NCBI GenBank assembly: GCA_009697455.1
Contig: SHUI01000006.1
Location: 1 to 41,187, forward strand
Source: Bryobacterales bacterium
GTDB taxonomy: Bacteria > Acidobacteriota > Terriglobia > Bryobacterales > Bryobacteraceae
Direction: 5' to 3'
DNA: 41,187 nt
Shown: positions 2,498 to 34,149 of the stretch, one piece after another
Position numbering within the stretch: position 1 is the first letter of the stretch
Layout: the number at the start of each line of letters is the position of its first letter
The notes under the pieces: model-generated
The model's input: only the letters and a program-made list of their open reading frames with translations
Databases searched by the model: none
What the model was told of the DNA's origin: nothing
Translations under genes and position numbers: made by a program

Positions 2498-5400
2498 ATG
2501 CTCAGTCGCCTGCTTGTTCTTTCTCAACTTAGCGTTTTTGTAACATTCGCGTCCGGCGCTCACGGCCGGTACGCGAAATTACCTCTCAGTTTTGAGAGCA
2601 CAACGGGCGAAACGGCGTTCGTTTCGAGAGTTCCGGGGTACACGCTGTTCATCACACCCGGTGGCGCAATCGTCGAATCCGCCAAGTCGTCCATCCGGAT
2701 GTCCCTTGAAGGTGCGAATCAGGCGGCGGGCGCGGCCGGAATCGACAGGCTGCCAGGAAGGGCGAACTATTTTACAGGCAGGGATCGTTCCAAGTGGCGG
2801 ACAAATGTCCCCATGTACGGCAGAGTGCGTTATAGCGCCGTGTACCCCGGTATCGATCTCGTCTATTATGGAAACGATCGAGAGCTTGAGTATGACTTCG
2901 AAGTCGCGCCTGGCGCCGACCCGGGGCGGATAATCGTTGCCTTCGGACCGGCCAAGCTAAGTCTTGATGCCTCTGGCGACCTGAGTGTCACCACGGGAGG
3001 CGCGGGCTTGCGGATGCGCAAGCCCGTAATGTATCAGAACATTGACGGCAAGCGGGTCCTGGTAACCGGCGGCTTCGCACTTTCGGCGGGGAACCGGATT
3101 TCTCTGCGGGTGGGCGCGTATGACCGCTCGCGGAAGCTCGTCATCGACCCGGTCCTGAGCTATTCGACCTATCTGGGGGGCGCGGACGACGATGTGGCCG
3201 GGGCGCGTTCGGGAGGCGGAATCGCAGCCGATGCCAGCGGCAATACCTACATCGTGGGCACCACAAGTTCGGCGAATTTTCCATCATCCCCGGGCAGCGT
3301 CCAGCCGAAAAGCAAAGGCGACTCCGACGTCTTCGTCGCGAAGTTGAATTCGAGCGGAACGGCGGTGCTGTATGCCACCTACATCGGTGGCGCGGCCGGC
3401 GATACCGGATACGCGATCGCCGTTGACGCATCCGGCAATGCGTACATTGCGGGATCCACCAGTTCCACGGATTTCCCGGTTTCCGACAACGCGGTCCAGA
3501 AGACGCATGCCGGCGGCGTCCGGGATGTGTTCGTTACCAAGTTGAATCCGGACGGTTCGGCGCTTGTGTACTCCACCTATCTCGGCGGCAGCGGCGTGGA
3601 ACCCAACGCCAGCATCGCCTTGGACCCAAACGGAAACGCGTACGTGGCAGGTAACACCAATTCGACCAACTTCCCCACCACCCCGGGCGCGTTGCAGACC
3701 ACCCGCGGCGGCCTCTCCGCCGCCTTCGTCACCAAGTTGAACGACAGCGGCTCAGCATTCGTTTTTTCGACGTATCTTGGCGGAACGGGCGGCGATAACA
3801 CGGTTGGAATTACGGTTGATGCGGGATTCAACGCGTACGTGACCGGGTCGACGAACTCGTCGAGTTTTCCCACAACGGCCGGCGCAAGGCAGAGGACCTT
3901 CGCGGGTGGCGCGAGCGACGCATTCCTCTCGAAGTTCGCCTTCGACGGCGCCAGTTTGCTCTATTCCACACTGCTTGGTGGCACCGGTGACGACAGCGGG
4001 TATCGGGTCGCGGTCGATGCCGGGGGAAATGCGCTGGTCACGGGCGTCACGCGGTCGAAGGACTTTCCGGTATCCCCGGGCGTCACGCGTTCGTCGAACG
4101 CCGGAGATTCAGCGGCCTTCGTCGCGAAAGTGAGTCCGAATGGGGCGAACCTCGGCTACTCCGTGTACCTCGACGGCAACGATGACGATCAAGGTAACGA
4201 CATCGCGGTAGACTCCGAAGGCAACGCCTGCGTGGTTGGCGGTACCGGTTCGACGAACTTTCCGCTGTCGCCTAACGCGCTCGCGATGCCTGGGAAAGCC
4301 TCGTTCGCGGCGAAGCTCGCCGCCGCCAACGGCGCGATAATCTACTCCACCTACATCGGTGGAACGGGCGCAACTTCCGCGACGGGCGTGGCTGCTGACG
4401 CAGCTGGTGCGTGCTACGCGACGGGATGGACGGAATCCACGGACTTTCCCGCGTCGGCCGGAGCCGCCCAGGCGAGCAACGCCGGAAATCGCGACGTCTT
4501 TGTCGCGAAGATTTCGCCGCTCGGATCTATCTCCGGAATAGTGACCGATTCCGCCGGCGCGGGACTGAGCAATGTGACCGTCACATTGACGGGCGCCAAG
4601 AGCGTCGGCGGACAGACCGATGCCAACGGCAATTTTGCCTTCTTCGATCTCGCGGATGGCAGCTACACGGTGACGCCAACGCGCGCGAACTTCAGCTTCA
4701 CGCCGCCCAGCCAGACTTTCAGCACGCTTACTACTGCGCAAGTGGCGCGTTTCCGCGCCGAAATCCTGCAGTTTGAAATCGCGGGCAAAGTGGCGGACGG
4801 CGCCGGCAAGGGTGTCGCGGCCGTCACGGTTACACTCAGCGGTGGTCAAACCGGCACGGCGCAGACCGACGCCGGCGGTGCGTATGTATTCAAGAACCTG
4901 CCCGGTAATGGCACTTACACGGTGGTGGCGGCAAAGTCCGGATTCGCAATTGTGCCCGACAAGTTGACTTTTGAAAACCTGACAGCGAATCAGACCGCGA
5001 ACTTCACCGCCCTGCCGATCTACAAGATCTCCGGCAAGGTCACGGGTCCAACGGGCGCCGGCATGATTGGCGTCACCTTGGCGATTTCGGGAGGGATGAC
5101 CGCAACGGCCACGACCGACGCCGCAGGCGCCTACTCCTTCCCCGTGGTACCTTCCGGTTCGAACTATACCGTTACTGCATCGAGAACTTCCTGGACGTTC
5201 ACGCCCGCGAATCGATCTTTCACGAATTTGAACGGGGATCAAACGGCGGACTTCGCGGCGGTCCTCGCGACTGGACAAGCCGAAATTGTAATCGCCGACC
5301 GGAAGAACAAGGCGATTTACCGCTTTTCCAACCGCCAGATCACAAAAATAGCGAATGTCGGCACCTGCCCCACGGCGGTCGCTCCTGATTCCGCGGGGAA

Positions 5401-8400
5401 TCTCCTCGTGGCCGATCCCTGTACGAAGTCCATTATCAGCGTTACGCCCGCTGGCGCGCCGACAACGCTGTTTGCTGGTGCCCCGCTTCAGACGCCCTAC
5501 GCGATTGCCGTGGATGCGACGGGCGATGTCTTCGTCACAGATAACACGACAAGCATTATCTACCGGATCGCGCTTCCCAGCCGCGCGATCTCCGAGTTCG
5601 CAACACTCCAACTCCGCGCGGTTCCGAACGTCCAAAACGTTGGACTCGCTTTCGCTTCGAACGGCGATCTGATCTCCGCAAACGACGACGGCAACGGCAG
5701 GACTTCCGTTCTCCGGATCGCTCCGGACGGCAAAATCACAAGCGTGTTCCTGGGAACCGGAATCGAGAGCGCGGGTGGTGTGTCGATCGACGGCAACGGA
5801 ATTTTCTTCATTGCGGACTATAAGCAACGCGTCGTGGCCCGGCTTGAGCCGGGCAAATCTCCTGGATCCGTGGTGACGGGAGACGGAGTTTGCTGCAATC
5901 TGGCGGGGATCGCCGTCGACGCGGCGGGGAACGTCATTGTCACCTTGGACACAGCGTCCAAACTGCTATCCGTTTCGCCCAATGGGGCCATTACCTCCCT
6001 TGTGAACGGACCGCCCCTGTTTGAGCCCGCGGGTATTGCGATTGTCGGCGGTATCACCGCGACGCCCTCGATCGCCGGCCGCGTCCTTGAGATCGACGGC
6101 ACACCTGCTTCCGGCCTTACGGTTACCCTTACCGGAGGCGCTCAGCCTGTTACGGGCAAAACTGACGCCGGCGGCTACTTCTTTTTCCGCAATCTGGTCG
6201 CGGGAAACAACTACAAAGTTACACCCTCGCGGGCTAACTCGGCCTTCGTCCTCGCGAATGGCACGGACACGTTCGAAAATCTCATTTCGAATAAGAGTCT
6301 GGGCTTCAGAGCAGCCGTCATCTTCAGTATCAGCGGAAGGGTAGCGGATTCCGCGGGAAGCGGAGTGCAAGGGGTCAGCGTCAATGCCAGCGGATCGGCA
6401 AACGCCGGCGCGCAAACGGACGCAAGTGGCGTGTATACGCTCAAAGATCTCCCTGCGGGCAGCAGTGTGACGATCACGGCTTCGAAGACAGGCTTGATCA
6501 TCACCCCCACCGGAATTTCCATTAGCAACCTGAGCAAGAACGAAACCGGGGTCAACTTCATCGCGGGTTCGCCCGCTCAAAACGGCGATTTTATCGTCGT
6601 TGACCGGCGCGGCAAAGCCGCATACCGGTTTGCGGCCGGCGGCCGAAACGTGAGCCCGTTGGCTTCGCTTCCCGGGTGTCCTGCCGCAGCCACCGCGGAT
6701 AGCAGTGGAAACGTTTTCGTCGCGGACCCGTGCACGAAAGCAATCTATCGGGTTACAGCGGCCGGGACGGTAACCACCTACTTCTCGGGTGATCCGCTGA
6801 ATTCCCCGATCGCGATAGCCGTTGACATCGCCGGCGGCGTTTACGTTGGCGACAACGCGCGAAACTTCATTTACCGGATCGGCGCCGATGGAAAGGCCGT
6901 GGAGTTCGCGAGGCTTCCCCTTCAGTCCAGCCCCGGCGCCCAGAACATCGGGCTGGTGTTCTCCGCCGCAGGCGACTTAATCGCGGCAAATGACGACGGG
7001 AATCTCAAATCCGAAGTCATCAAGGTCGCTCCGGACGGGAAAGTTTCGGTTATCTACTCGGGGGCGGCGATTGAGAGCGCGAGCGCGGTGGCAATCGACG
7101 CGGCGGGCAACTATATCGTGGCCGATCCGCGCCAGAAGGCGATATCCAGAGTGACACCCGATGGACGCACGGCGATTCTGGTAAGCGATGTGTGCTGTGC
7201 GCTCGCGGGATTGGTGTTTGATCCGGCTTCGGGCAATCTGGTCGCGACGCTCGACACCGCAACCAAGATCATCAGCATAACACCCGGCGGCGCGGTCTCG
7301 ACCATCGTGAACGGACCGCCCCTCAGCGAACCCACGGGTCTGACAATTCTGTCAACCGGAGCAGCCAATCCCGCGATTTCAGGCCGGATTGTGGACGCTG
7401 CTGGAAATGCGGTCGTGGACGTAACCATTACCCTCACCGGCGGAGCGCAGCCCGCCACTACAAAGTCCGATGGCGGCGGCAACTACGCCTTCCGCAATCT
7501 GACGGCCGGCGGAAACTACACTGTAACGCCGTCGAAGACCGCACTCGGGTTTTCGCCTCTCAACGCGGTATTTTCAAACCTCACAAGTAACCAGAGCGCC
7601 AACTTCACCGGAGGCAACGTGTTCGCAATCAGCGGCCGCGTTATTGACGGCGCTGGCGCCGGACTCCTGGGTGTGATTATTACCCTGTCGAGTGGACCTT
7701 CGAGCGTCACCGCGCAGACGGACGTCAACGGCAACTACTCCTTCCCGAGTGTCTTTGCGGGCAGCGATTATTCTGTTTCGCCTTCAAAGACCGGCCTCCT
7801 GTTCTCCCCGGCGAACGTTTCGGTGACCAGACTGAGCCAGAACGCGGTCGCGAACTTTATCGGCGGGTCTGCCGCAACGCTGGGGGACTTTATTGTTTCG
7901 GACAGGCGAGGAAAGGCGATTTTCCGAATTTCCCCTTCGACCCGAATTCCAAATCCTATCGCCGCGGTTGGTGAATGCCCAGCCGGCATTGCGACCGACG
8001 CATCCGGGAATATCTACGTCGCCGACCCTTGCACGCGGGCTATTTTCCGCGTCACCGGAGGCGGCGTCGTCACACCCCTGTTTATCGGGACCCCTCTGCT
8101 TTCACCGGTAGCCATAACTCTTGACATCGCTGGAAACCTGATTGTAGCCGATAACGATCTCAACCAGATTCTGAGCATCGCACCTGAGACCAAGGCGGTC
8201 ACGGTGCTTGCGAAACTTCCGTTGCAATCTTCCGCAAGTACAACGGTTCAGAACATGGCACTCGCCTATGACGGCAACGGCGAATTGGTCGTGGCAAACG
8301 ACAGTGGGAGCGGGAGGAGCGAGATCATACGGATCAAGCAGAATGGCGATATCGTCAACGTACTCACTGGAACCTCGATTGCGAGCACCGGCGCACTTGT

Positions 8401-9973
8401 TATCGAATCTTCCGGGAACTACCTTGTGGCGGACTATCGCGAGCGCCAGTTGGTCCGGGTCACGCCGGCCGGGGTGGCGACCGTTGTGGTGGGGGCACTC
8501 GGGAACAATCTTGCCGGGTTGGCTCTTGATCCGGTGTCCGGCAACGTCATCGCGACCCTTGACAGCGACAGCAAGGTTATTTCAATCACGCCGAACGGCA
8601 CAACTGTATCGAATGTTGTCAGCCAGTCGCAGTTGCTGACCCCCACGGGCATCGTGGTGCTTGGTGTAACGGGAGGGTTGCCCGGACTTATCGGACGGGT
8701 CACCGATCCCGCGGGTGCGCCGTTGGCGGACATTCTGGTGACGCTGAGCGGGGGGTCAAGCGCCACGGCCCGGACCGACGCGGGGGGGAATTATGCATTC
8801 CGCGGATTGACTTCGGGCGGGACTTATACAGTCACCCCCTCCCGGGCCGGATTCCTGTTCGTCCCGCCCAGCGTCACTTTTGAGAACCTGAACCGGCCGC
8901 AACTCGCGAATTTCAGAGGCGGGGCGGCCTTCGACATCACGGTCCGCGTCACCGACGCCGCGGGCGGTCCGGTCTCGGGCGTCAGAGTCGAACTTTCCGG
9001 CGTGGCAATCGTCACCGATAATACCGGTACGTTCACCTTCCGCGGTATCCCGGGCGGCACAGGCTACGAGGTGTCGGCTTCGAAAGAGGGGTTCATCATC
9101 ATACCCCGGGCCCAAACCATTACAAATCTCACCTCCAACACCACGGTCAGCTTCACCGTCGGCGTGCCGCCTTCACCGGGCGACTACCTTGTGGCGGATC
9201 GAAAGGCAAAAACCATCGTCAGGATTTCACCGAATGGGCGCAGCGCGAACCCAATCGCAAGTCTGGGCACCTGCCCGTCTGGCGTTACAGTTGACGGCGC
9301 CGGCGTCATTTGGGCCATTGATCCTTGCACAAAGACGCTGTTCCGGGTCACACTAACCGGATTCGCGCAGTCGATCTTTGTGGGCGACCCGCTCGTTCAT
9401 CCCACAGCCATTGCAACCGATGCCGCCGGTAACGTTTTTATCGCCGACAATGGAACGAATGCGAGTGGAACGAATTCCATTTTCAAGTACACGCCTAACT
9501 CGACCTCGTTGCCGGCTGAGTTCGGCCAGTTCCGTCTCAAGTCGTCAACCACCGCGCAGAACATGGGTCTTACGTTCGACGCCAACGGCGATCTGATCGC
9601 CGCGAACGACGACGGCAGCAAGACCGAGATTCTGCGCTTCAAGCCGGATGGAACCCGATCGGTAATCTACAGCGGGTCGGCCATCCAGAGCGCAGCGGGT
9701 GTTGCTATAGACGGGACGGGTGATTTCATCGTTGCCGACTACGCAGCGCGCGTGTTCGCCAGATTGAATGCCCAGGGCAGCGTCAGTGTTCTGGCACCCG
9801 CCGGTGGAAATCCGGCCGGTGTGATCTTCGATTCCGTCACGAGGAATATTGTTGCGTCGCTTGACCAGGAGACGCGGATTGTCAATATTGGGGCCAACGC
9901 GACCGCGGTTACCCTGATCCAGGGTCCGCCTCTTACGGAACCCGTTGGCATCGCGATCTATCGCCCGAAGTAG
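2498..9973 (+). CDS. Giant exported SBBP-repeat / CnaB / NHL-type beta-propeller protein (2491 aa)
   Basis: The ATG has GGAG 8 nt upstream and opens a signal peptide (MLSRLLVLSQLSVFVTFASG). Residues about 25-215 match the DUF7948-type head found before SBBP repeats (RANYFTGRDRSKW, YPGIDLVYYGND). Seven SBBP repeats follow (about 220-675; STYLGG...DxxGNxYVxGxTxSxxFP). Three CnaB/carboxypeptidase-regulatory-like domains lie at about 678-925. Then come four propellers starting near 929, 1364, 1797 and 2229, separated by CnaB pairs. Each propeller has blades of the PxGVAxDxxGNxxVADP type and opens with xDRRxKAIYRx. The protein ends just after propeller four with no sorting tag or membrane anchor that I recognise. 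A secreted or surface structural or carbohydrate-contact role is inferred; no catalytic domain is visible. Confidence 0.92.
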   Translation: MLSRLLVLSQLSVFVTFASGAHGRYAKLPLSFESTTGETAFVSRVPGYTLFITPGGAIVESAKSSIRMSLEGANQAAGAAGIDRLPGRANYFTGRDRSKWRTNVPMYGRVRYSAVYPGIDLVYYGNDRELEYDFEVAPGADPGRIIVAFGPAKLSLDASGDLSVTTGGAGLRMRKPVMYQNIDGKRVLVTGGFALSAGNRISLRVGAYDRSRKLVIDPVLSYSTYLGGADDDVAGARSGGGIAADASGNTYIVGTTSSANFPSSPGSVQPKSKGDSDVFVAKLNSSGTAVLYATYIGGAAGDTGYAIAVDASGNAYIAGSTSSTDFPVSDNAVQKTHAGGVRDVFVTKLNPDGSALVYSTYLGGSGVEPNASIALDPNGNAYVAGNTNSTNFPTTPGALQTTRGGLSAAFVTKLNDSGSAFVFSTYLGGTGGDNTVGITVDAGFNAYVTGSTNSSSFPTTAGARQRTFAGGASDAFLSKFAFDGASLLYSTLLGGTGDDSGYRVAVDAGGNALVTGVTRSKDFPVSPGVTRSSNAGDSAAFVAKVSPNGANLGYSVYLDGNDDDQGNDIAVDSEGNACVVGGTGSTNFPLSPNALAMPGKASFAAKLAAANGAIIYSTYIGGTGATSATGVAADAAGACYATGWTESTDFPASAGAAQASNAGNRDVFVAKISPLGSISGIVTDSAGAGLSNVTVTLTGAKSVGGQTDANGNFAFFDLADGSYTVTPTRANFSFTPPSQTFSTLTTAQVARFRAEILQFEIAGKVADGAGKGVAAVTVTLSGGQTGTAQTDAGGAYVFKNLPGNGTYTVVAAKSGFAIVPDKLTFENLTANQTANFTALPIYKISGKVTGPTGAGMIGVTLAISGGMTATATTDAAGAYSFPVVPSGSNYTVTASRTSWTFTPANRSFTNLNGDQTADFAAVLATGQAEIVIADRKNKAIYRFSNRQITKIANVGTCPTAVAPDSAGNLLVADPCTKSIISVTPAGAPTTLFAGAPLQTPYAIAVDATGDVFVTDNTTSIIYRIALPSRAISEFATLQLRAVPNVQNVGLAFASNGDLISANDDGNGRTSVLRIAPDGKITSVFLGTGIESAGGVSIDGNGIFFIADYKQRVVARLEPGKSPGSVVTGDGVCCNLAGIAVDAAGNVIVTLDTASKLLSVSPNGAITSLVNGPPLFEPAGIAIVGGITATPSIAGRVLEIDGTPASGLTVTLTGGAQPVTGKTDAGGYFFFRNLVAGNNYKVTPSRANSAFVLANGTDTFENLISNKSLGFRAAVIFSISGRVADSAGSGVQGVSVNASGSANAGAQTDASGVYTLKDLPAGSSVTITASKTGLIITPTGISISNLSKNETGVNFIAGSPAQNGDFIVVDRRGKAAYRFAAGGRNVSPLASLPGCPAAATADSSGNVFVADPCTKAIYRVTAAGTVTTYFSGDPLNSPIAIAVDIAGGVYVGDNARNFIYRIGADGKAVEFARLPLQSSPGAQNIGLVFSAAGDLIAANDDGNLKSEVIKVAPDGKVSVIYSGAAIESASAVAIDAAGNYIVADPRQKAISRVTPDGRTAILVSDVCCALAGLVFDPASGNLVATLDTATKIISITPGGAVSTIVNGPPLSEPTGLTILSTGAANPAISGRIVDAAGNAVVDVTITLTGGAQPATTKSDGGGNYAFRNLTAGGNYTVTPSKTALGFSPLNAVFSNLTSNQSANFTGGNVFAISGRVIDGAGAGLLGVIITLSSGPSSVTAQTDVNGNYSFPSVFAGSDYSVSPSKTGLLFSPANVSVTRLSQNAVANFIGGSAATLGDFIVSDRRGKAIFRISPSTRIPNPIAAVGECPAGIATDASGNIYVADPCTRAIFRVTGGGVVTPLFIGTPLLSPVAITLDIAGNLIVADNDLNQILSIAPETKAVTVLAKLPLQSSASTTVQNMALAYDGNGELVVANDSGSGRSEIIRIKQNGDIVNVLTGTSIASTGALVIESSGNYLVADYRERQLVRVTPAGVATVVVGALGNNLAGLALDPVSGNVIATLDSDSKVISITPNGTTVSNVVSQSQLLTPTGIVVLGVTGGLPGLIGRVTDPAGAPLADILVTLSGGSSATARTDAGGNYAFRGLTSGGTYTVTPSRAGFLFVPPSVTFENLNRPQLANFRGGAAFDITVRVTDAAGGPVSGVRVELSGVAIVTDNTGTFTFRGIPGGTGYEVSASKEGFIIIPRAQTITNLTSNTTVSFTVGVPPSPGDYLVADRKAKTIVRISPNGRSANPIASLGTCPSGVTVDGAGVIWAIDPCTKTLFRVTLTGFAQSIFVGDPLVHPTAIATDAAGNVFIADNGTNASGTNSIFKYTPNSTSLPAEFGQFRLKSSTTAQNMGLTFDANGDLIAANDDGSKTEILRFKPDGTRSVIYSGSAIQSAAGVAIDGTGDFIVADYAARVFARLNAQGSVSVLAPAGGNPAGVIFDSVTRNIVASLDQETRIVNIGANATAVTLIQGPPLTEPVGIAIYRPK
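3155..4522 (+). repeat. Seven tandem SBBP (beta-propeller-like) repeats inside the giant gene
   Basis: Seven copies of about 65 residues each carry a (V/L)YSTYxGG anchor, a xxAVDxxGNAYVxGxTxSxxFP strand and a DxFVxKLxxxG end. Copy six is degenerate (SVYLDG). The copies differ at DNA level, so they are old repeats and not recent duplications. Confidence 0.85.
5282..9970 (+). repeat. Four-copy 1.3-kb tandem unit (propeller, with two CnaB domains between copies)
   Basis: The motif (A/V/S)DR(R/K) that opens each propeller has its Asp codon at 5297, 6602, 7901 and 9197. The periods are therefore 1305, 1299 and 1296 bp (435, 433 and 432 codons). Within each unit the order is conserved: a propeller of about 260 residues ending in GPPLxEPxGIAI, then two CnaB-like domains with SGRVxDxxGxGxxGVxVxLSG and TDxxGxYxFxxLxxG motifs. 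Unit four ends after the propeller. Each copy keeps a Cys pair, xCP...DPCTK, 18 residues apart. Confidence 0.88.
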
Positions 9974-14976: not shown

Positions 14977-17900
14977 CTAAAACACGATCTTCAATGCAAA
15001 TTGAATCTGCCGCGCCGGGAACGTGCTGCGTATCGTGCCAAAGGCCGCGTTCGAGCGGTTCGGATTCGCGGGCCGGAAGTTCGATTTGTTGAGCAGATTG
15101 AAGAACTCGGCGCGAAATTGCACGTAGGTATTTTCCCGAGGAACATGGAAGTCCTTTTGCACGCCCATATCGGCCTGATAGAGCGCGTGGCTGCGGGCGA
15201 CGTTTCGCCCGGCGTTGCCAAAAGGCTGGCTGCGGTCCGTCGGCACCGCGACCGTCGCGGCATTCAGGTAATTGTCAATCGTGCGGCTTTGCGACGGAGT
15301 CACCGCCGGTCCGTTCACATTCGGCCTGTACCAAATGGCGCCGCGCCAGTCCGACGCGATGTTTGAAACCTGAGACACCGCGGCCGGACTGTAGCGCAGG
15401 TTGATCGGTTCGCCGCTCCACATGTTGTGAATGGCGCTGATTTGCCAGCCTCCGATCACGCCATCGAGCACGGCGGGCATGTCCGACGCAAACCTCCGCT
15501 TCTTTCCGATGGGCACCTGCCACACCAGACTCGTCGTGTTGTTGAACGTCTGATCGTACCCGGATGGACCCTTCTCCGCGGCGAGGTTGTAGAAATTCTG
15601 CACGCTCGCGCCATTGCTGCTGTTCTGGTCTTCGAGCGCCTGCCCCACGTTGTCCAGGCCCTTCGAGTAAGTAAACGAGTTCAGGACAAAGAATCCGTCC
15701 GCGTACCGCCGCTCCACCTTGACTTGCAGCGCGTTGTAGTTCGCCCAGCCGTAGTTTGCCGCGAGCGTGATCGGGTCCGAAGCTCTGGTTCGGGCGGCGG
15801 AGCTGCAAGGCGGTGTCCTCGGTTGGCGCGTTCGGGCGGGCCTGATTGAAGTCGGCGAATAGAAGCAGTTTGTTACTGCGATTGCCCACGTAGGCGAGAT
15901 CGACGACCGTGTTCCGCGCAACCTCGCGCTGAACGGAGAGAAACCAGTTCTGTACGTAGCCGGTGCGGGTGTCGCGCGGCATATAGGAAATGTTCGACCG
16001 GATCGGATCGAATCGCGCGGGGTCCGTCAGACCCGCCGGATACCCCTGCTCGGTCGGACGGAATCCAGCTTGACCAGCCGTCTGGGAGATTGCCGCGATC
16101 ACCACCTGCGGTCCGTTGATCGCCAGAAGGTTCCCGCCGCCCGCCCGGTTGAAGTGGACATAGCTGATACCGTAACCGCCGCGCACCACCGTCTTCGCGT
16201 TCAGCGAATAAGCAAAGCCCACACGCGGCGCGAAATTGTTCCGGTCCGGATTGACCTGAGCGCGGTCCGCGATCGAACCGTTCGCGCCTGGAATCAGCTT
16301 GTTCGTGAAAGGATCGAAATTGCTCAGCTTGAGGCCGCTCTCCCACTGCGGCGTGGCATATTCGTAGCGTGCGCCGAGGTTTAGCGTCAGCTTCGAGTTC
16401 AACTTGAAGTCGTCCTGGACATAGCCGAAGTTCATCACTTGGCGGTACTGCGCGACGAAAAAATTCACCAGGGAGTAGCTGGCGCGTTGTCCGAACATGA
16501 AGTCGGCCAGGTTGTAGGTGGCGTTATCGGCGGCTCCTCCCACGGGGCGGCTGAACTGTCCGTCGTAGGTGTCGAGACCATAGAGGGGGTTCACGTCCTG
16601 CACTTCCGTGTGAATGCGCTGGTATTCGTAGCCCGCCTTGAGCGAGTGCTTGCCCATAACCCGCGAATAATTCACGCGAGGATTGTAAAGGAACGGGTGC
16701 TGCCACTGCGGATTGGTCGCTTGCCGGCCGAGGCCCGTGTAGCCGTTGATATTCTGGTTCGTCAATCCGCCGCTCAGTCGCGGGTCTTCCGAGAGCCCCG
16801 AAATGCCAAACAAGGCTTGCATGCTGGGTCCGCCCAGACCGAACGGCTCCTTACCCGCGCGCGTCTTCGAGATTCCCATGCGAATTTCAAGCAAGGACGT
16901 GGGCGTTACCGTGTAGGTGAAACCCATCGCGATCTGCTGATTGAGCGCGCGGACAAAGCCGTTTCCGCCGCCGCCCGAGGGGCCGGGAATATCCGGCTGC
17001 TGGAAGATGTTGCCTTTCCGGTGGCTCAGACGCGCGAAGGCCGTCATGCGGCTATTGATCTGCCCGTCTAGCTTCACGTTCATCTTGTCGTTGTTGTTCT
17101 TGTCGCGGCGCAGCAGATTGAAATTGTTGGCGCGGGCGAGGCTGGTGGGCGCGGGCAGATTCGCCAGAACCGTTCGCGCGAACGGCGTGATGCGCGACGG
17201 CGGGATCGGCGTGTTGGCCGGCAAGACGTCTCCCGTAATCACGTTGCGAACGGGTTTATCGAATATGCCCGCGCGGTCATTCAAAGTTGGAATGCTTGAA
17301 AACGAGGGAAATTTCTGCAGTTCCCGGAAGCCTTCGTAATCGGTGAAGAAGAATGCGCGGTTCTTCGCGATGGGTCCGCCAAACGTAAATCCATACTGGT
17401 TTCGCTGGAGCACGGGCTTGACGTTGCCAACGGGCTTGAAGTACCCCACGGCATTGAGCCTCGTATTACGCACGAACTCCCACGCGCTGCCGTGAAATTC
17501 GTTCGTGCCGCTCTTCATTGAGGCATTGATGACGGCGCCGGAGGTGCGGCCATACTCGGCGCTCATGTTATTCGTGACCACCTTGAACTCCGCGACGGTG
17601 TCCGGCGATGCTTGCACCACCTGATTCGAAAACCCCTGGTTGCTCGTGCCGTAGGCGTTGTTGTCCACTCCGTCGAGAAGAAAATTATTGAACGTGCTGC
17701 GCTGCCCGTTGGCATTGAACGACCCCTCTCGCGGCGGATTGGCGAACGCGTAGGCGGACCGGCGCACGCCCGTGGTGAGCAGAGCGAGTTCCGAATAGTT
17801 ACGCCCGTTCAATGGAAGTTCGACGATTTGTTTGCTGCCGATCACCTGACCGCGGTCGCTCGAATCGGTTTCAAGCGCCTTAACGGCATCGGTCACTTGC

Positions 17901-18247
17901 ACGGTCTCGCTTACGGCTCCCACTTTCAGGACCAGGTCCACGCGCTGCCGCGCGTTCACGCGCACCGCGAAGCTGTCCACGGCCGCGGTCGCAAAGCCCG
18001 CCAGTTCCGCGCTCACGCGATACGTTCCGATCCTCACATTCAAGAACTGATAGCTTCCCGTCTCGTCGCTTTTGGTGACGGACTTGATCCCCGTCTCAAT
18101 GCTGGTGAGGGTGACGGCCGCGCCCGGCGCGGGACTGTCGCTCGAGTCGCGTACCGTGCCGAGCACGACCGCCGTATCGAACTGCGCAAGGCACATGCAT
18201 GTCAGGACCAGAAAAACAACCCACGTTCTCAATGCTGTTCTACACAT
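14977..18247 (-). CDS. Oar-like TonB-dependent receptor with carboxypeptidase-regulatory domain (one frameshift)
   Basis: About 1090 residues when joined. The signal peptide (MCRTALRTWVVFLVLTCMCLAQ) is followed by a carboxypeptidase-regulatory-like domain (VLGTVRDSSDSPAPGAAVTLT). A plug with ELPLNGRNYSELALLTTGV and FLLDGVDNNAYG comes next, then SGAVINASMKSGTNEFHGSAWEF and a long outer-membrane barrel ending in the aromatic QIQFALKIVF. The frame breaks near 15773-15775. The upstream frame ends in QLRRPNQSFGP and the downstream frame resumes ITLAANYGWANYNALQVKVERR. Removing one C from a CCC run (GGG on the plus strand) restores it. Both sides are otherwise well conserved, so this is a recent mutation or a consensus error. 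GGAGG lies 6 nt before the start. The gene is divergent from the radical SAM gene. Confidence 0.88.
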
Positions 18248-29052: not shown

Positions 29053-29430
29053 TTGGTGGGGCAGCCGGTTCCGGCTGCCTACCGTGCGAGGCGCGGCCGG
29101 CTCTCACTGTCCCCTGCGGCCTCAGGACGTCTGGCGCGGACGCTGGAAGGGCACTCGGATTGGGTCAGGTCGGTGAGCTGGAGTCCGGATGGGGGGCAGT
29201 TGGTGAGCGGCTCCTCTGACAATACCGTGCGGGTGTGGGATGCGGCCTCGGGGGAGTTGTTGCGGACGCTCTATCACTTGCCCGAGGGCGGGTGGCTGGC
29301 GATGGAACCTGACGGACGGTATCGCGCGAATGCGGCGGGCAAGCGCTGCGTGCACTATGCGAGCGGGTGGGCGCTGTACCGGGCGGAGGCGTTTCCGGAG
29401 TTGGATATCACGGAGCAGCGCGATGCGTGA
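29053..29430 (+). pseudogene. 3' remnant of a WD40-repeat protein gene
   Basis: The frame contains one full WD40 repeat ([33 protein letters not shown]). It is preceded by the tail of another ([10 protein letters not shown]) and followed by [25 protein letters not shown] and a terminal region with [22 protein letters not shown]40 propellers need about seven repeats, so most of the gene is missing. The 5' break coincides with a REP-like palindrome, and the first 18 or so codons of the track ORF are that palindrome and its flank. The remnant keeps coding character, so the deletion looks recent. Native function was probably protein-protein interaction; it is not expected to fold alone. Confidence 0.68.
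29056..29079 (+). repeat. REP-like palindrome with GTGGGGCAG head
   Basis: GTGGGGCAGCCGG-TT-CCGGCTGCC has a 9-bp perfect stem (GGCAGCCGG/CCGGCTGCC) and a 2-nt loop. It lies at the broken 5' end of the WD40 remnant, inside the track ORF. Confidence 0.6.
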
Positions 29431-29591: not shown

Positions 29592-30386
29592 CTACGGACT
29601 TCGCGTCAACTGCGCGATCCGCGCATTCAGCCCTTGCAACTGCCGCATGTCGTCGTCGGCCTGCTGGATGGAGCTCTGGACCCGGGAGAGGTCTCCCGCC
29701 TGTACGCCCGAACCGCTTTGCTCCCGATTCTGGAGATTGAGCGAAATAGCGCGGAACGTATCGGTCACTTCGCGATAGCGGCGCTGTAAGCTGGTGACAA
29801 GAACCTCGCGGCGGCGGTTGAGGTCTTCGATTTCGCGCGACATCGCAGCCGGTCCTCTCACGGCTGATTCCGCTCGCGTCTGCCGCTCCGTGGCGAGCTT
29901 CCCTGCCGTCTCCGCCTGCACCAGCCGGTCCGACTTGACTCGAAGCTCGGCTTCGAGAGCCGTCGAGATGCGGCGGGCAACTTGAAGGTCTTCCTTGAGA
30001 TCCTCCACCTGCGCGGCCAGTTTCCCACGGCCGCCGGACTCGGTCTCTGCCTTGACCTCGGCCCGCTCGGCTTCTTCCCGGGCGACGCCGATTTCGCGGT
30101 CGAGCGCCGCGACTCGCCCGCGAAGCTCCTCAATGATCTTGATATACTCCGCGGCGTCCGCGCCCGTGGGGACCCTGACGATCTTCGTCTCCGGAGGCGG
30201 CGCGGCATCGGTAGCCGCCGGGCCCGCCGAGGGGAGTGGCGCCGGCGATCGAGGCACCCGGCTGAGTTCAGCTTCAAGCGCGGCAACCCTTTGCCGCGCT
30301 TGCGAGTACTGCTGTTCGGCGCGTTGCCATAAGACTACGGCGGCGACTGCCGCGCAGCCAAGGACGAAGAGCGGTAGCTTTCGCAT
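29592..30386 (-). CDS. Single-span, proline-rich coiled-coil protein of unknown function
   Basis: The ATG at 30386 has GGAAGG 8 nt upstream and gives 264 residues; the GTG at 30395 (track start) would create a GTGA overlap but leaves no room for a ribosome-binding site. An N-terminal membrane anchor (LPLFVLGCAAVAAVVLW) is followed by a short coiled coil (EQQYSQARQRVAALEAEL). A Pro/Ala-rich linker (PRSPAPLPSAGPAATDAAPPP) comes next, then about 170 residues of predicted coiled coil rich in Glu, Arg and Ala. No catalytic motif is seen. It is the last gene of a group with an Oar-type barrel and a VWFA-related protein. The layout resembles a periplasm-spanning adaptor, which is only inference. Confidence 0.75.
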   Translation of the reverse strand: MRKLPLFVLGCAAVAAVVLWQRAEQQYSQARQRVAALEAELSRVPRSPAPLPSAGPAATDAAPPPETKIVRVPTGADAAEYIKIIEELRGRVAALDREIGVAREEAERAEVKAETESGGRGKLAAQVEDLKEDLQVARRISTALEAELRVKSDRLVQAETAGKLATERQTRAESAVRGPAAMSREIEDLNRRREVLVTSLQRRYREVTDTFRAISLNLQNREQSGSGVQAGDLSRVQSSIQQADDDMRQLQGLNARIAQLTRSP

Positions 30387-30391
30387 CGGGA

Positions 30392-31309
30392 TCACCTTCC
30401 AAGCGAAAAACGGGTATGGCAGGGGATTTCGCGGTCCCCGTTCATGAGCGTGACCGTAGCGGTTCGCGACTTCACGCGGCCCAATTCGAGCGCGACACTC
30501 CAGTGCGAAGCCGCCGCGCCCAGCACTTTTTCAAGCGACGCCGGGATCTCGCCGGGACTGCGGCAAAATGCCCCCACGCCTCCGCTGTCGCCCGCCAATT
30601 GCAGCAGGCCGCGCTGATACGCCTCGTTTATCGGATCTGAAAAATAGCTGAGATGGACGAAGAAAAAGGGCGTTTCCGACGACGACATCGCCTCGGAAAG
30701 CTTCTTGATTTTCTCCCGGATGAGCTGCTCGGGGAACCTGCGGCTCAGGTCCCGTGAATCGCTTGAGTTGATCACCGGGTTTGTGAAGTCTTCGCGGTAG
30801 TTGTAGATGTTGCTATCGGTGAGATAGAGCACTGCCACGCGGACGTTCGCGCGGCGATTCATGCTGTCGCCCAACTTGGCCGCCGTCTCCAGAGTGCCCA
30901 GCAGACCGGCCTTTCCCGTGGCGCCGTAGGCAAGAATCGTTTCGATAATCTTCGGCCGATCGGGAGTGGGGTCCGCCAATACCTGGAGCAGATCCTGCGA
31001 CTTCATCACGGTAAGCCAGATGTGCCCGGGCAGCCGCGGCAGGGCCTCGGCGAGGGCGCGGCGCGCGGCATCGACGAGAGAGACGTCGCCGGTGAGGTCC
31101 AGCACGAGAATGAGGATCATGCCGTCCTCCGGACCACGAGCCCGAAGTACGGTGACGGGCGACCCATCGAGGGCCGCCTTGAACCCGGCCTTGTCGAGCG
31201 GCGGATCCTGATCGAGCGCGGCCACGCGAAGCACGGTCTGCGCGGTCCGCTTGGACTCCCCGCCATTCGCGGCAAGAGCGGCGGCCAACAATAGGACCGG
31301 CAGGCGCAT
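30392..31309 (-). CDS. VWFA-related domain protein, exported
   Basis: This 305-residue protein begins with a signal peptide (MRLPVLLLAAALAANGG). The body resembles the VWFA-related proteins common in Acidobacteriota, with MILILVLDLTGDVSLVDAARRAL at the first strand, RVAVLYLTDSNIYNYRED, FFFVHLSYFSD and GGVGAFCRSPGEIPASLEKVL. The MIDAS loop is D71-L-T-G-D75 where the canonical form is DxSxS, so metal-dependent ligand binding may be altered. The ATG shares one base with the stop of the upstream receptor gene (TGATG), which implies translational coupling. The coiled-coil gene follows within 5 nt. A role in the envelope beside the receptor is likely but unproven. Confidence 0.82.
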   Translation of the reverse strand: MRLPVLLLAAALAANGGESKRTAQTVLRVAALDQDPPLDKAGFKAALDGSPVTVLRARGPEDGMILILVLDLTGDVSLVDAARRALAEALPRLPGHIWLTVMKSQDLLQVLADPTPDRPKIIETILAYGATGKAGLLGTLETAAKLGDSMNRRANVRVAVLYLTDSNIYNYREDFTNPVINSSDSRDLSRRFPEQLIREKIKKLSEAMSSSETPFFFVHLSYFSDPINEAYQRGLLQLAGDSGGVGAFCRSPGEIPASLEKVLGAAASHWSVALELGRVKSRTATVTLMNGDREIPCHTRFSLGR

Positions 31310-34137
31310 CAGAAACTGAACCTCATTCCAAGTTGGATGACCCGGCCCCCGCGGGAGCCGATGATCCGGCCAGCGTTGATATTAGGCGCGGAAGCCGGGC
31401 CGATGACGGGATCGGGATCGGCCCAGTTGCCGGTGTTGGTGAAGTTGAACCCCGTCGCCGTTACCTCCACTGCCCGTTCGGCGGAAAGGGCGATGCGCTT
31501 GGTGACGGAAAGATCGTGATTCTGGTTGCCCGGACTGAGCAATTGAGGATGTGTCCGCGGACCGTTCCCCAGCGTGAAATCCGGCGGCTGCTCAAACGCC
31601 GCGGGGTTAAACCAGTGATCGGGCGTGCGGTCAGCCGCGGGATCGATTCCGGGAACGACGTTGACGCGCAACGCATCAATCAGGCCCCCGGTATTGTTGA
31701 ACTGCGGTCTCAGGGCGAGGGGTTCACCGCTCTGAACCGAGGTTATGCCGCTGATCGACCAGCCGTCCACGATGTACCTGCGCCAGTCGTTGAACGCAAG
31801 CAAAGCCCTGCTCGACCCGAGAGGGAGTTCGTAGACGAAGCTTAGTGACAGCCGGCGGGGATCGTTGCTCGAGGTCAGCGACCATTCGTTCTTCTTGTTG
31901 TAGAAATCCTGGACGCCGTAGGGACCCGAGTAATCGTCCATCTGCTTCGAGAATTCGTAGGTCGCGTTCAGAGTGAGACCGCTTGCGGAGCGCTTCTCCA
32001 CGCGAAGCGCGCACGAGTTGCGCTTGTAGTTGGCTGCCGGCCACGAGCTGTAAACGTCAAATCGCTGGTATTGCGGATAAGGGCGCAACGTTCGGCGGAA
32101 GGCTTCCGTGTTGAGTTCGTCCCGGTAGGCTAGGTTCGAGAGCGGAATGGCATTAGGGTTGACGGCGGAGTTGCTGATGAACATCCGCTGGCCGCGGGAA
32201 TGGCCCAGACTGACCGCGAGAATGATCTGCGAAGGAAGTTCGCGCTCGAACGAGAGACCGGCGGATTGATACATGGGCACGGTGCCCGATGGATCTACAA
32301 GATCGGCGACGGTAAGATTTGCGGCGTCGGGCCGCAAGTCGGGAAGCGCGCGAGGTATCGGCGGGATTCCATTTCCGAGAACGATAGCCGGCTGAAGCTG
32401 GATGTTAGTGGAGATGAAGGCCGGCGTTCCGACGAAACCTTGAGTACCCCATTGCGCCGTGTAGATGGGAATTGAACTGAAGCTCAAACCATAGCTGAGC
32501 CGGACCACGCTCTTTGGATCGTCGCGGGGATTCCAGGCAAGCCCGAAACTCGTCTCCGGCCGGACAACCGCCGGTTGGAAGGCGCGGCCGCGGCCGTTAC
32601 GATTGGCAAAAACGAGCGCGCCCGCCCGGCCGCCGGCGGGGTTGATCGCACTCAGGTCCACCGTCGAAAAGCGATTGTACTTTTCGGTGCGCGGAAGAGA
32701 AGCCTCAATCGAGAAGGCAAAGCTGAAATTGAGTCCCCTCGAATACTCGTAGTTGTCGCGAACACCCACTGATCCGAAGCTGCCACGCCAATAGGAAGGG
32801 TGATCGACCTTCGTAACTTCCGCCGCTTCACTAAGCCCCAGCAGGAAACTGGCGAACGAATGCCCCGTATTGACGATGCCGGGTAGCGACGTAAGCGAAG
32901 GACCGAACGAAAAGTGCCCGGAAGGATACTGCGGGAGGTAGGCATTAACCAGGTACCGGCGCAATTGAGAGACGAAGCGCGACCGGTGCTTTCCGAGGCG
33001 GAACGAGAGACCTTCGGTCAGATAGTAGTAGTTGTGCGAACTGACGGCTGTGGGATTGGTGCGGCCCATGCCGAGGTAGTCGCCGAAGCGGAAGACCGGG
33101 AATGCCTTACTAAGCGGACCTCGCAGTTCGATCGCGTCCCGCGCGCCTTCTTCGCCGGGGCGGCTGCTCTCGGAGCGATCAGATCGCGCTTCGAACGTGA
33201 GCGCATTTACGGTGGACGCGTTCCTCGTGAACGTCCAGTCGGCCGCGGCCCGTCGCGCGCTGAACTTGCGGTCACTGCCGCCTGAATCGGCAACTGTGCT
33301 GAAGTAGCGGGGGGCCTTGGCCAGTCCGTCGGTGAAAGACATGTTAGCTGTCAATCGATGCCGCGCGGCGGGTGCGTGATCCAATTTCAAGATCATGCCG
33401 TCCGCATGATTCGTTTCCGGCGAGAAGACAAAGTAGTTGTTGCGGAAAAAAGGCCCGGCGTTGGCGTTCGGAAGCGGGTAGAGAGCGGTTGCGCGCAGGG
33501 CTACGGGGTCGAGGCGGGTCGGCGGGATCGTGTTTGCCGCAAAGGGATCTCGCCGATGCTCCAGGTTCTGGGTGGAGACTGGAAGAGATGGATCGAAACC
33601 GGTGTTTAGCCGCGTTGACAGCGGATCGTAGATGGGCAACCGGTTCCCGGCGCTGTCCACGGTCCGCGCGAAATCTCCGGAGTGCTCGGGGGCGATCGCG
33701 ACGGTGCGGAGATACGAACGGCCGATGCGTTCGCGAACGCCTTCGTAGGAAATGTTGAAGAAAGTGGCGCTGGAACCGTCATAAAGCCTTGGAATGACAA
33801 CCGGGCCGCCGACATTAAATCCGAACTGGTTCCGGCGCAGCAGGTTTCGCGTTCCGCCTCGCTGAACCACGTCATGGGGGACGGCGTCGAGCAGATCGTT
33901 CCGGAAGTTCTCAAAAATGCGGCCGTGCCACCCGGTCCCGGGGCTGCCGCGCTTATTCTGTTTCGGTGGCGAATCCGGCCGGAGACCGAGTTCACGAGTG
34001 AGCGTCTTGAATTCTTCGGCCGCGCGTTCAAGTTCGGAAGGGGGCACTGAAGGCTGAGGACGCCGGGGCTGTTGCGCGGCGCAGTCGATGACGGCGGGCA
34101 CTAGCAGAACGCTGATCCTTGCCAACGGCCAAGCCAT
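31309..34137 (-). CDS. Oar-type TonB-dependent receptor-like outer-membrane barrel lacking the plug region
   Basis: The ATG at 34137 opens a signal peptide (MAWPLARISVLLVPAVIDCAAQQ) and gives 942 residues; the track start (GTG, 34218) adds arginine-rich sequence. After a short helical, Pro-rich stretch (PPSELERAAEEFKTLTRELG) it reads GTGWHGRIFENFRNDLLDA and LLRRNQFGFNVGGPVVIP. This aligns with NEFHGSAWEFVRNTRLNA and LQRNQYGFTFGGPI of the first receptor in the window. The carboxypeptidase-regulatory domain and the plug (LPLNGRN, LDGVDN) are therefore absent. The barrel continues to a C-terminal GRVIQLGMRFSF with terminal Phe, expected for BAM-mediated insertion. It is coupled to a VWFA-related gene. 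No Shine-Dalgarno has good spacing; TACACT ends 6 nt before the ATG. Confidence 0.85.
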   Translation of the reverse strand: MAWPLARISVLLVPAVIDCAAQQPRRPQPSVPPSELERAAEEFKTLTRELGLRPDSPPKQNKRGSPGTGWHGRIFENFRNDLLDAVPHDVVQRGGTRNLLRRNQFGFNVGGPVVIPRLYDGSSATFFNISYEGVRERIGRSYLRTVAIAPEHSGDFARTVDSAGNRLPIYDPLSTRLNTGFDPSLPVSTQNLEHRRDPFAANTIPPTRLDPVALRATALYPLPNANAGPFFRNNYFVFSPETNHADGMILKLDHAPAARHRLTANMSFTDGLAKAPRYFSTVADSGGSDRKFSARRAAADWTFTRNASTVNALTFEARSDRSESSRPGEEGARDAIELRGPLSKAFPVFRFGDYLGMGRTNPTAVSSHNYYYLTEGLSFRLGKHRSRFVSQLRRYLVNAYLPQYPSGHFSFGPSLTSLPGIVNTGHSFASFLLGLSEAAEVTKVDHPSYWRGSFGSVGVRDNYEYSRGLNFSFAFSIEASLPRTEKYNRFSTVDLSAINPAGGRAGALVFANRNGRGRAFQPAVVRPETSFGLAWNPRDDPKSVVRLSYGLSFSSIPIYTAQWGTQGFVGTPAFISTNIQLQPAIVLGNGIPPIPRALPDLRPDAANLTVADLVDPSGTVPMYQSAGLSFERELPSQIILAVSLGHSRGQRMFISNSAVNPNAIPLSNLAYRDELNTEAFRRTLRPYPQYQRFDVYSSWPAANYKRNSCALRVEKRSASGLTLNATYEFSKQMDDYSGPYGVQDFYNKKNEWSLTSSNDPRRLSLSFVYELPLGSSRALLAFNDWRRYIVDGWSISGITSVQSGEPLALRPQFNNTGGLIDALRVNVVPGIDPAADRTPDHWFNPAAFEQPPDFTLGNGPRTHPQLLSPGNQNHDLSVTKRIALSAERAVEVTATGFNFTNTGNWADPDPVIGPASAPNINAGRIIGSRGGRVIQLGMRFSF

Positions 34138-34143
34138 GACTCC

Positions 34144-34149
34144 AGTGTA
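34144..34149 (-). promoter_or_regulatory. TACACT -10-like box 6 nt upstream of the second receptor ATG
   Basis: The minus strand reads TACACT-ggagtc-ATG, the same geometry as uvrB and recX. The GGAG within the spacer is only 2 nt from the ATG, too close for a normal ribosome-binding site. Apart from this box, the 201-bp gap up to the deacetylase gene (34138-34338) shows no gene. Confidence 0.38.

Follow-up and report, generated by a model that had tools for sequence, protein, structure and literature searches.

A plug-less family of Oar-type outer-membrane barrels in Acidobacteriota, linked to an exported VWA-fold protein

The Bryobacterales contig analysed here (the window, a stretch of 41,187 nucleotides) carries a gene for an Oar-type outer-membrane barrel that seems to start where the first strand starts. 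This raises the question whether the gene is the remnant of a longer receptor or encodes a barrel that naturally dispenses with its plug and, in the latter case, what takes the place of the plug. Three consecutive genes, encoding the barrel, a VWA-fold protein and a coiled-coil protein, are read in this order on the minus strand from position 34137 to 29592. The features of the locus, with their basis in brackets, are as follows:

34144..34149, minus strand: -10-like hexamer TACACT, candidate near-leaderless promoter, ending 6 nt before the ATG (ortholog comparison)
31309..34137, minus strand: plug-less Oar-type outer-membrane barrel of 22 strands, 942-aa precursor (PF25183 only, AF2 model, clade)
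34075..34137, minus strand: candidate signal peptide of the barrel, to about CAA/QQ (hydrophobic N-terminus, A-x-A/AQ-like sites throughout the family)
33967..34035, minus strand: conserved N-terminal helix/motif ExxxAxEEFKxxTRxLGLRxDSP in the place of the plug (precedes the first strand in all intact orthologs)
31312..33927, minus strand: barrel domain, from WHGR to the C-terminal F (PF25183, predicted strands)
30392..31309, minus strand: exported VWA-fold protein, probably periplasmic, 305 aa (AF2, PDB folds, PF13519, TIGR03436, adjacency)
30734..30817, minus strand: VWA hallmark loop TDSxIxNYREDxTNPVINxSDxRDLSRRF (densest invariant residues)
29592..30395, minus strand: membrane-anchored coiled-coil protein, 264-267 aa, accessory (hydrophobic N-terminal anchor, conserved C-terminal part)

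Domain composition and ancestry of the barrel

The sole Pfam match of the barrel gene (31309-34137) is PF25183 (OMP_b-brl_4; E 5e-131, residues 70-935), with a score of 439 bits against a curated cut-off of 30, and the Pfam profiles for the plug (PF07715) and the carboxypeptidase-like domain (PF13620) find no match in it. PF25183 is common to the window barrel and the plugged Oar-type receptors of its genome, and the other receptor in the window (15275-18247) carries both PF07715 and PF13620 besides its barrel. The claim of an earlier, sequence-only reading that the barrel begins at the first strand region without these two domains was thus borne out, with H71 (WHGRIFENFRND) as the start of the barrel region. 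Upstream of H71, only the signal peptide, the helix ELERAAEEFKTLTRE (residues 35-49) and a basic/Pro linker are present, which agrees with the short helical, proline-rich segment that had been proposed to replace the plug. The window protein is exported and Oar-type and has no space for a plug or a carboxypeptidase-like domain. Elsewhere in the window (2498-9973), a 2491-aa protein contains a DUF7948, beta-propeller repeats, about nine carboxypeptidase-like domains and a Vgb_lyase-type propeller.

Structure prediction of the barrel alone (AF2), which had been suggested as a check, yielded a model of about 22 barrel strands with no globular domain ahead of them (mean pLDDT 87.5), in which the N-terminal helix was placed with modest confidence at residues 14-28 of the mature protein. 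The best PDB fold matches were the TonB-dependent transporters YddB, FusA and Fiu, while PDB sequence searches returned nothing useful for the barrel and VWA profiles and only generic coiled coils for the third protein. Positions conserved solely in the plug-less family fall mostly (55/79) into presumed extracellular loops, as assigned here from the model, which make up about 53% of the length, and scarcely ever into periplasmic turns. This distribution does not favour extensive docking on the periplasmic side.

The N-terminal arrangement of the window barrel recurs throughout the family. All 108 orthologs whose 5' end is intact have a short helix directly ahead of the first strand (WHGRxxENxRND) and a signal peptide before that helix; the helix consensus AxEEFKxxTRxLGLRxDSP becomes fainter in the most distant families. 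Plugged homologues, which the sequence-only reading had named as an argument against itself, did not turn up: PF07715 was matched by 0/38 orthologs tested with Pfam, and none of the 108 intact N-termini has a plug ahead of the first strand. PF13620 was likewise absent from the window barrel and the orthologs tested by Pfam (n=38), whereas PF25183 was matched by 38/38 family members. In most of the plugged paralogs examined, the first strand comes after about 250-320 codons, compared with typically about 60-130 in the plug-less family. The family consensus ahead of the first strand contains no stretch resembling a TonB box, a motif that is itself degenerate. When placed in a tree with 20 barrels of the window's own genome, the 38 plug-less barrels formed one clade, separate from the plugged paralogs, with a support of 100.

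A TA[ACT]ACT hexamer is located 4-16 nt ahead of the chosen barrel start in 22/38 orthologs, as against 0-2/37 in nine windows farther upstream and 0/40 ahead of VWA starts. In the window and its orthologs, TACACT or TAAACT most often ends 6 nt before the ATG. This arrangement suggests a -10 element that sets the transcription start near the ATG, giving a near-leaderless operon, and its position lends independent support to the barrel start codon. Between species, dN/dS was 0.10-0.14 for the barrel, 0.08-0.22 for the VWA protein and 0.2-0.34 for the coiled-coil protein, and all three genes are under purifying selection. Seen in isolation, the open reading frame would suggest a 5'-truncated or decayed receptor, or a pseudogene. 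More than 100 orthologs with the same N-terminus, the signal peptide, the -10-like element at the start, the single clade and the purifying selection rule this out, and its probability is practically nil.

The genome of the window (4.5 Mb, incomplete) shows a very large expansion of Oar-type barrels, with 127 matching places and 55 plug matches. A second plug-less barrel in this genome (L003, 911 aa) is only apparent, as the gene is cut by the contig end.

Partner genes and their linkage to the barrel

In the window, the barrel stop and the VWA start share 1 nt (TGATG, 31307-31311), as read earlier from the sequence, and the two codons overlap by 4 or 1 nt in 21/39 loci. The AF2 model of the VWA protein (pLDDT 92.3) matches VWA domains in the PDB, e.g. 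those of ArnAB, the inter-alpha-inhibitor heavy chain and Rpn10. PF13519 was matched by 34/37 members and TIGR03436, weakly to moderately, by 31/37 (best 2e-12); the window's own VWA protein gave no match to TIGR03436 at E<=1. The MIDAS motif DxSxS is absent: position 71 is D in 37/37 members, position 73 is T, V, A or S, and position 75 is D in 32/37, so that the two serines are not preserved and the metal site is degenerate, which makes integrin-type ligand switching unlikely. The highest density of invariant residues is reached in loop 165-192 (D165, Y171, N181, D184, D187, S189, R190 and F192), where the confidence of the model falls to about 77. Owing to this combination of dense conservation and reduced confidence, the loop is a candidate and likely a partner-binding surface. 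The protein itself is probably located in the periplasm.

The coiled-coil gene starts at an ATG at 30386 or a GTG at 30395. In its product, conservation is found in the C-terminal part (RRRE..RRYREVTDxYR...DLSRIQ...AEEDLRQL..LNAQ), away from the membrane anchor. The membrane anchor and the coiled coil described in the sequence-only reading were recovered, whereas the Pro-rich part proved variable. Most loci in the window's own family include the gene, downstream of the barrel-VWA pair, and more distant families lack it; relatives at the order and class level keep the barrel and the VWA protein without it. The core of the module therefore consists of the barrel and the VWA protein, with the coiled coil as an accessory. 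Between uvrB and the coiled-coil gene, a short open reading frame (29053-29430) resembles the end of a WD40-repeat protein and looks like a remnant.

A search with the VWA protein in 151 genomes produced matches in 77, nearly always in single copy, with 56 of these genomes belonging to the window's own family and 21 to other families of the order and class. A plug-less barrel was encoded immediately upstream of the VWA gene in 40/40 loci fetched. Conversely, a barrel-profile search of public genomes gave 79 loci, and the VWA gene followed the barrel in 73/73 of those in which the contig continues, the contig ending too early in the other six. The two sets have loci in common, and the profile was made from VWA-linked loci and is hence biased to orthologs. 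All but one of the 79 records are titled Acidobacteriota or subgroups thereof (including Bryobacter, Sulfopaludibacter, Solibacteraceae and group 11), and the odd one, a MAG labelled Arcobacter, is probably mislabelled. Among 20 genomes without a VWA match, 19 had no barrel ortholog and none had a complete barrel; the remaining one (G041) has only part of a barrel gene, which is interrupted by the end of its 3,489-base contig. Phylum-wide searches gave 4/396, a lower bound with few candidates scored per genome. The module is carried by many soil and freshwater Acidobacteriota.

One locus (L162, 4833-10779) contains tandem plug-less barrels of 949 and 1002 aa with a single VWA gene after the second, indicating that the barrel-VWA pair is retained even after duplication; the two barrels may form a mixed complex. 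In another (L157), a short gene on the opposite strand intervenes between the barrel and the VWA gene. The conserved three-gene order expected earlier was therefore upheld for the barrel and the VWA gene and not for the third gene, which is not universal, and the loss of linkage that would have spoken against the proposal was not seen. Overall, a plug-less Oar-type barrel with an obligate VWA partner and a frequent coiled coil was supported, while the coiled coil turned out not to be essential.

Putative lpxD-like, LOG-family, SpoIIE-type phosphatase and TrkA-type channel genes lie upstream of the barrel on the opposite strand in 13-24 loci. They are absent from the window, and this wider neighbourhood was rejected as part of the module. 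The divergent lpxD-like, LOG-family and SpoIIE-type phosphatase genes (all putative) were observed in 22-24 loci each (L068-L175).

Models for the closure of an unplugged barrel

The following course of events is proposed. An ancient acidobacterial Oar-type TonB-dependent receptor would have lost its plug and carboxypeptidase-like domain once, giving rise to a stable ortholog family whose barrel gene is the first of a small operon and whose product may act as a TonB-independent 22-strand outer-membrane channel. A barrel of such size, empty inside, would leak. We therefore propose that the VWA protein, presumably a soluble periplasmic product of the same message and often translated in a coupled manner, binds the barrel and closes, gates or stabilises it in place of the plug, and that the short N-terminal helix and the conserved loops at the surface assist it. 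In loci that encode it, the coiled-coil protein would be anchored in the inner membrane and span the periplasm to the barrel-VWA complex. In Myxococcus xanthus, deletion of the Oar plug lowers the protein level and stops secretion of PopC, and deletion of plug and NTE abolishes accumulation (PMC6434023). Since removal of the plug destabilises Oar in this organism, a natural plug-less Oar probably requires compensation. A precedent exists in type 9 secretion, where a separate Plug protein closes the barrel (PMC10202324). Control of the pore in trans by the VWA protein is the simplest model, given an obligate, exported and often translationally coupled partner, and we give it about an even chance. 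Closure may also involve the loops of the barrel, which might even seal the pore unaided, or the VWA protein may approach the barrel from a different side.

The conserved loops also bear on a different reading, in which they keep the pore permanently shut, with the VWA and coiled-coil proteins serving as a tether between the outer membrane, periplasm and inner membrane. Such a structural anchor would fit both the concentration of family-specific conservation in the loops and the position of the conserved part of the coiled coil, distal to the membrane anchor. It is nevertheless unlikely, because many loci have the barrel and the VWA gene without the tether protein, and 22 strands with all Oar loops would be an unusual choice for a mere anchor. 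Slightly less likely still is an exporter akin to Oar for PopC, with the VWA protein as a substrate that is released to or docked on the surface. Protein secretion in M. xanthus does require the Oar barrel (PMC6434023), and the obligate one-to-one pairing and the conserved surface loops would suit this role; however, Oar-mediated secretion depends on the plug and its TonB box (PMC6434023), whereas the barrels of this family lack a plug and nothing obvious would energise their pore. Nor does the VWA protein show the marked variability often seen in surface proteins.

Finally, a plug domain encoded elsewhere might act in trans and keep the protein TonB-dependent. The genome is rich in plug domains, yet no plug gene lies near the barrel, and the only plug match on this contig is that of the other receptor. 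Nearly all matches sit in long open frames, the few shorter ones tend to adjoin barrel fragments on the same contigs, and no free-standing plug accompanies the module across loci; this possibility is very remote. In the model that fits best, the barrel is a TonB-independent outer-membrane channel or translocon, the VWA protein shuts, gates or stabilises its pore, and the coiled coil forms a bridge to the inner membrane; we hold this model about as likely to be right as wrong. That it represents an undescribed class of translocon, built on a TonB-dependent-receptor barrel that lost its plug, gated in trans by a VWA protein and, in many lineages, physically connected with the inner membrane through a rod-like coiled coil, is a more tentative proposal, for which the chances lie below even.

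Relation to known envelope systems

The window barrel has 22 strands and the conserved stretches of the Oar subclass (e.g. M. xanthus Oar; PF13620, PF07715 and barrel) and differs from it by the short conserved helix in place of the two N-terminal domains and by its obligate VWA partner. As the plug domain PF07715 belongs to the published definition of TonB-dependent transporters (PMC6434023), the window protein is not one by this barrel-plus-plug definition, though descended from one. The type 9 translocon (SprA/Sov with Plug and PorV) offers a parallel to the proposed model, since a periplasmic protein distinct from its large barrel shuts the pore and further partners span the envelope, but SprA is a different barrel of 36 strands, whereas that of the window has about 22 and belongs to the Oar family; its partners are a VWA and a coiled-coil protein, and the module contains no T9SS parts. 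Compared with the acidobacterial VWFA family TIGR03436, the window-type VWA protein has a distinct hallmark loop and a degenerate MIDAS, occurs in single copy and is tied to the barrel. In the gliding machinery of M. xanthus, the VWA protein CglB occurs with the Glt outer-membrane barrels and envelope-spanning parts. The window module likewise comprises a VWA protein, an outer-membrane barrel and a putatively envelope-spanning part, but no gliding genes were seen in it and its MIDAS is not conserved; the Glt barrels and the window barrel are not known to be related. Searches of openly accessible journal papers turned up no account of naturally plug-less receptors forming an ortholog family, nor of the barrel-VWA gene pair.

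The plug has been treated as a defining part of the TonB-dependent class, and its artificial removal makes Oar unstable. A natural plug-less family that is always paired with one exported protein offers a ready means of testing how barrels of this type are shut and supplied with energy. The family-wide loss of the plug and the constant presence of this partner suggest a new type of channel in the envelope, opened under the control of the partner protein, and point to an unassigned envelope system in a dominant and poorly understood soil phylum.
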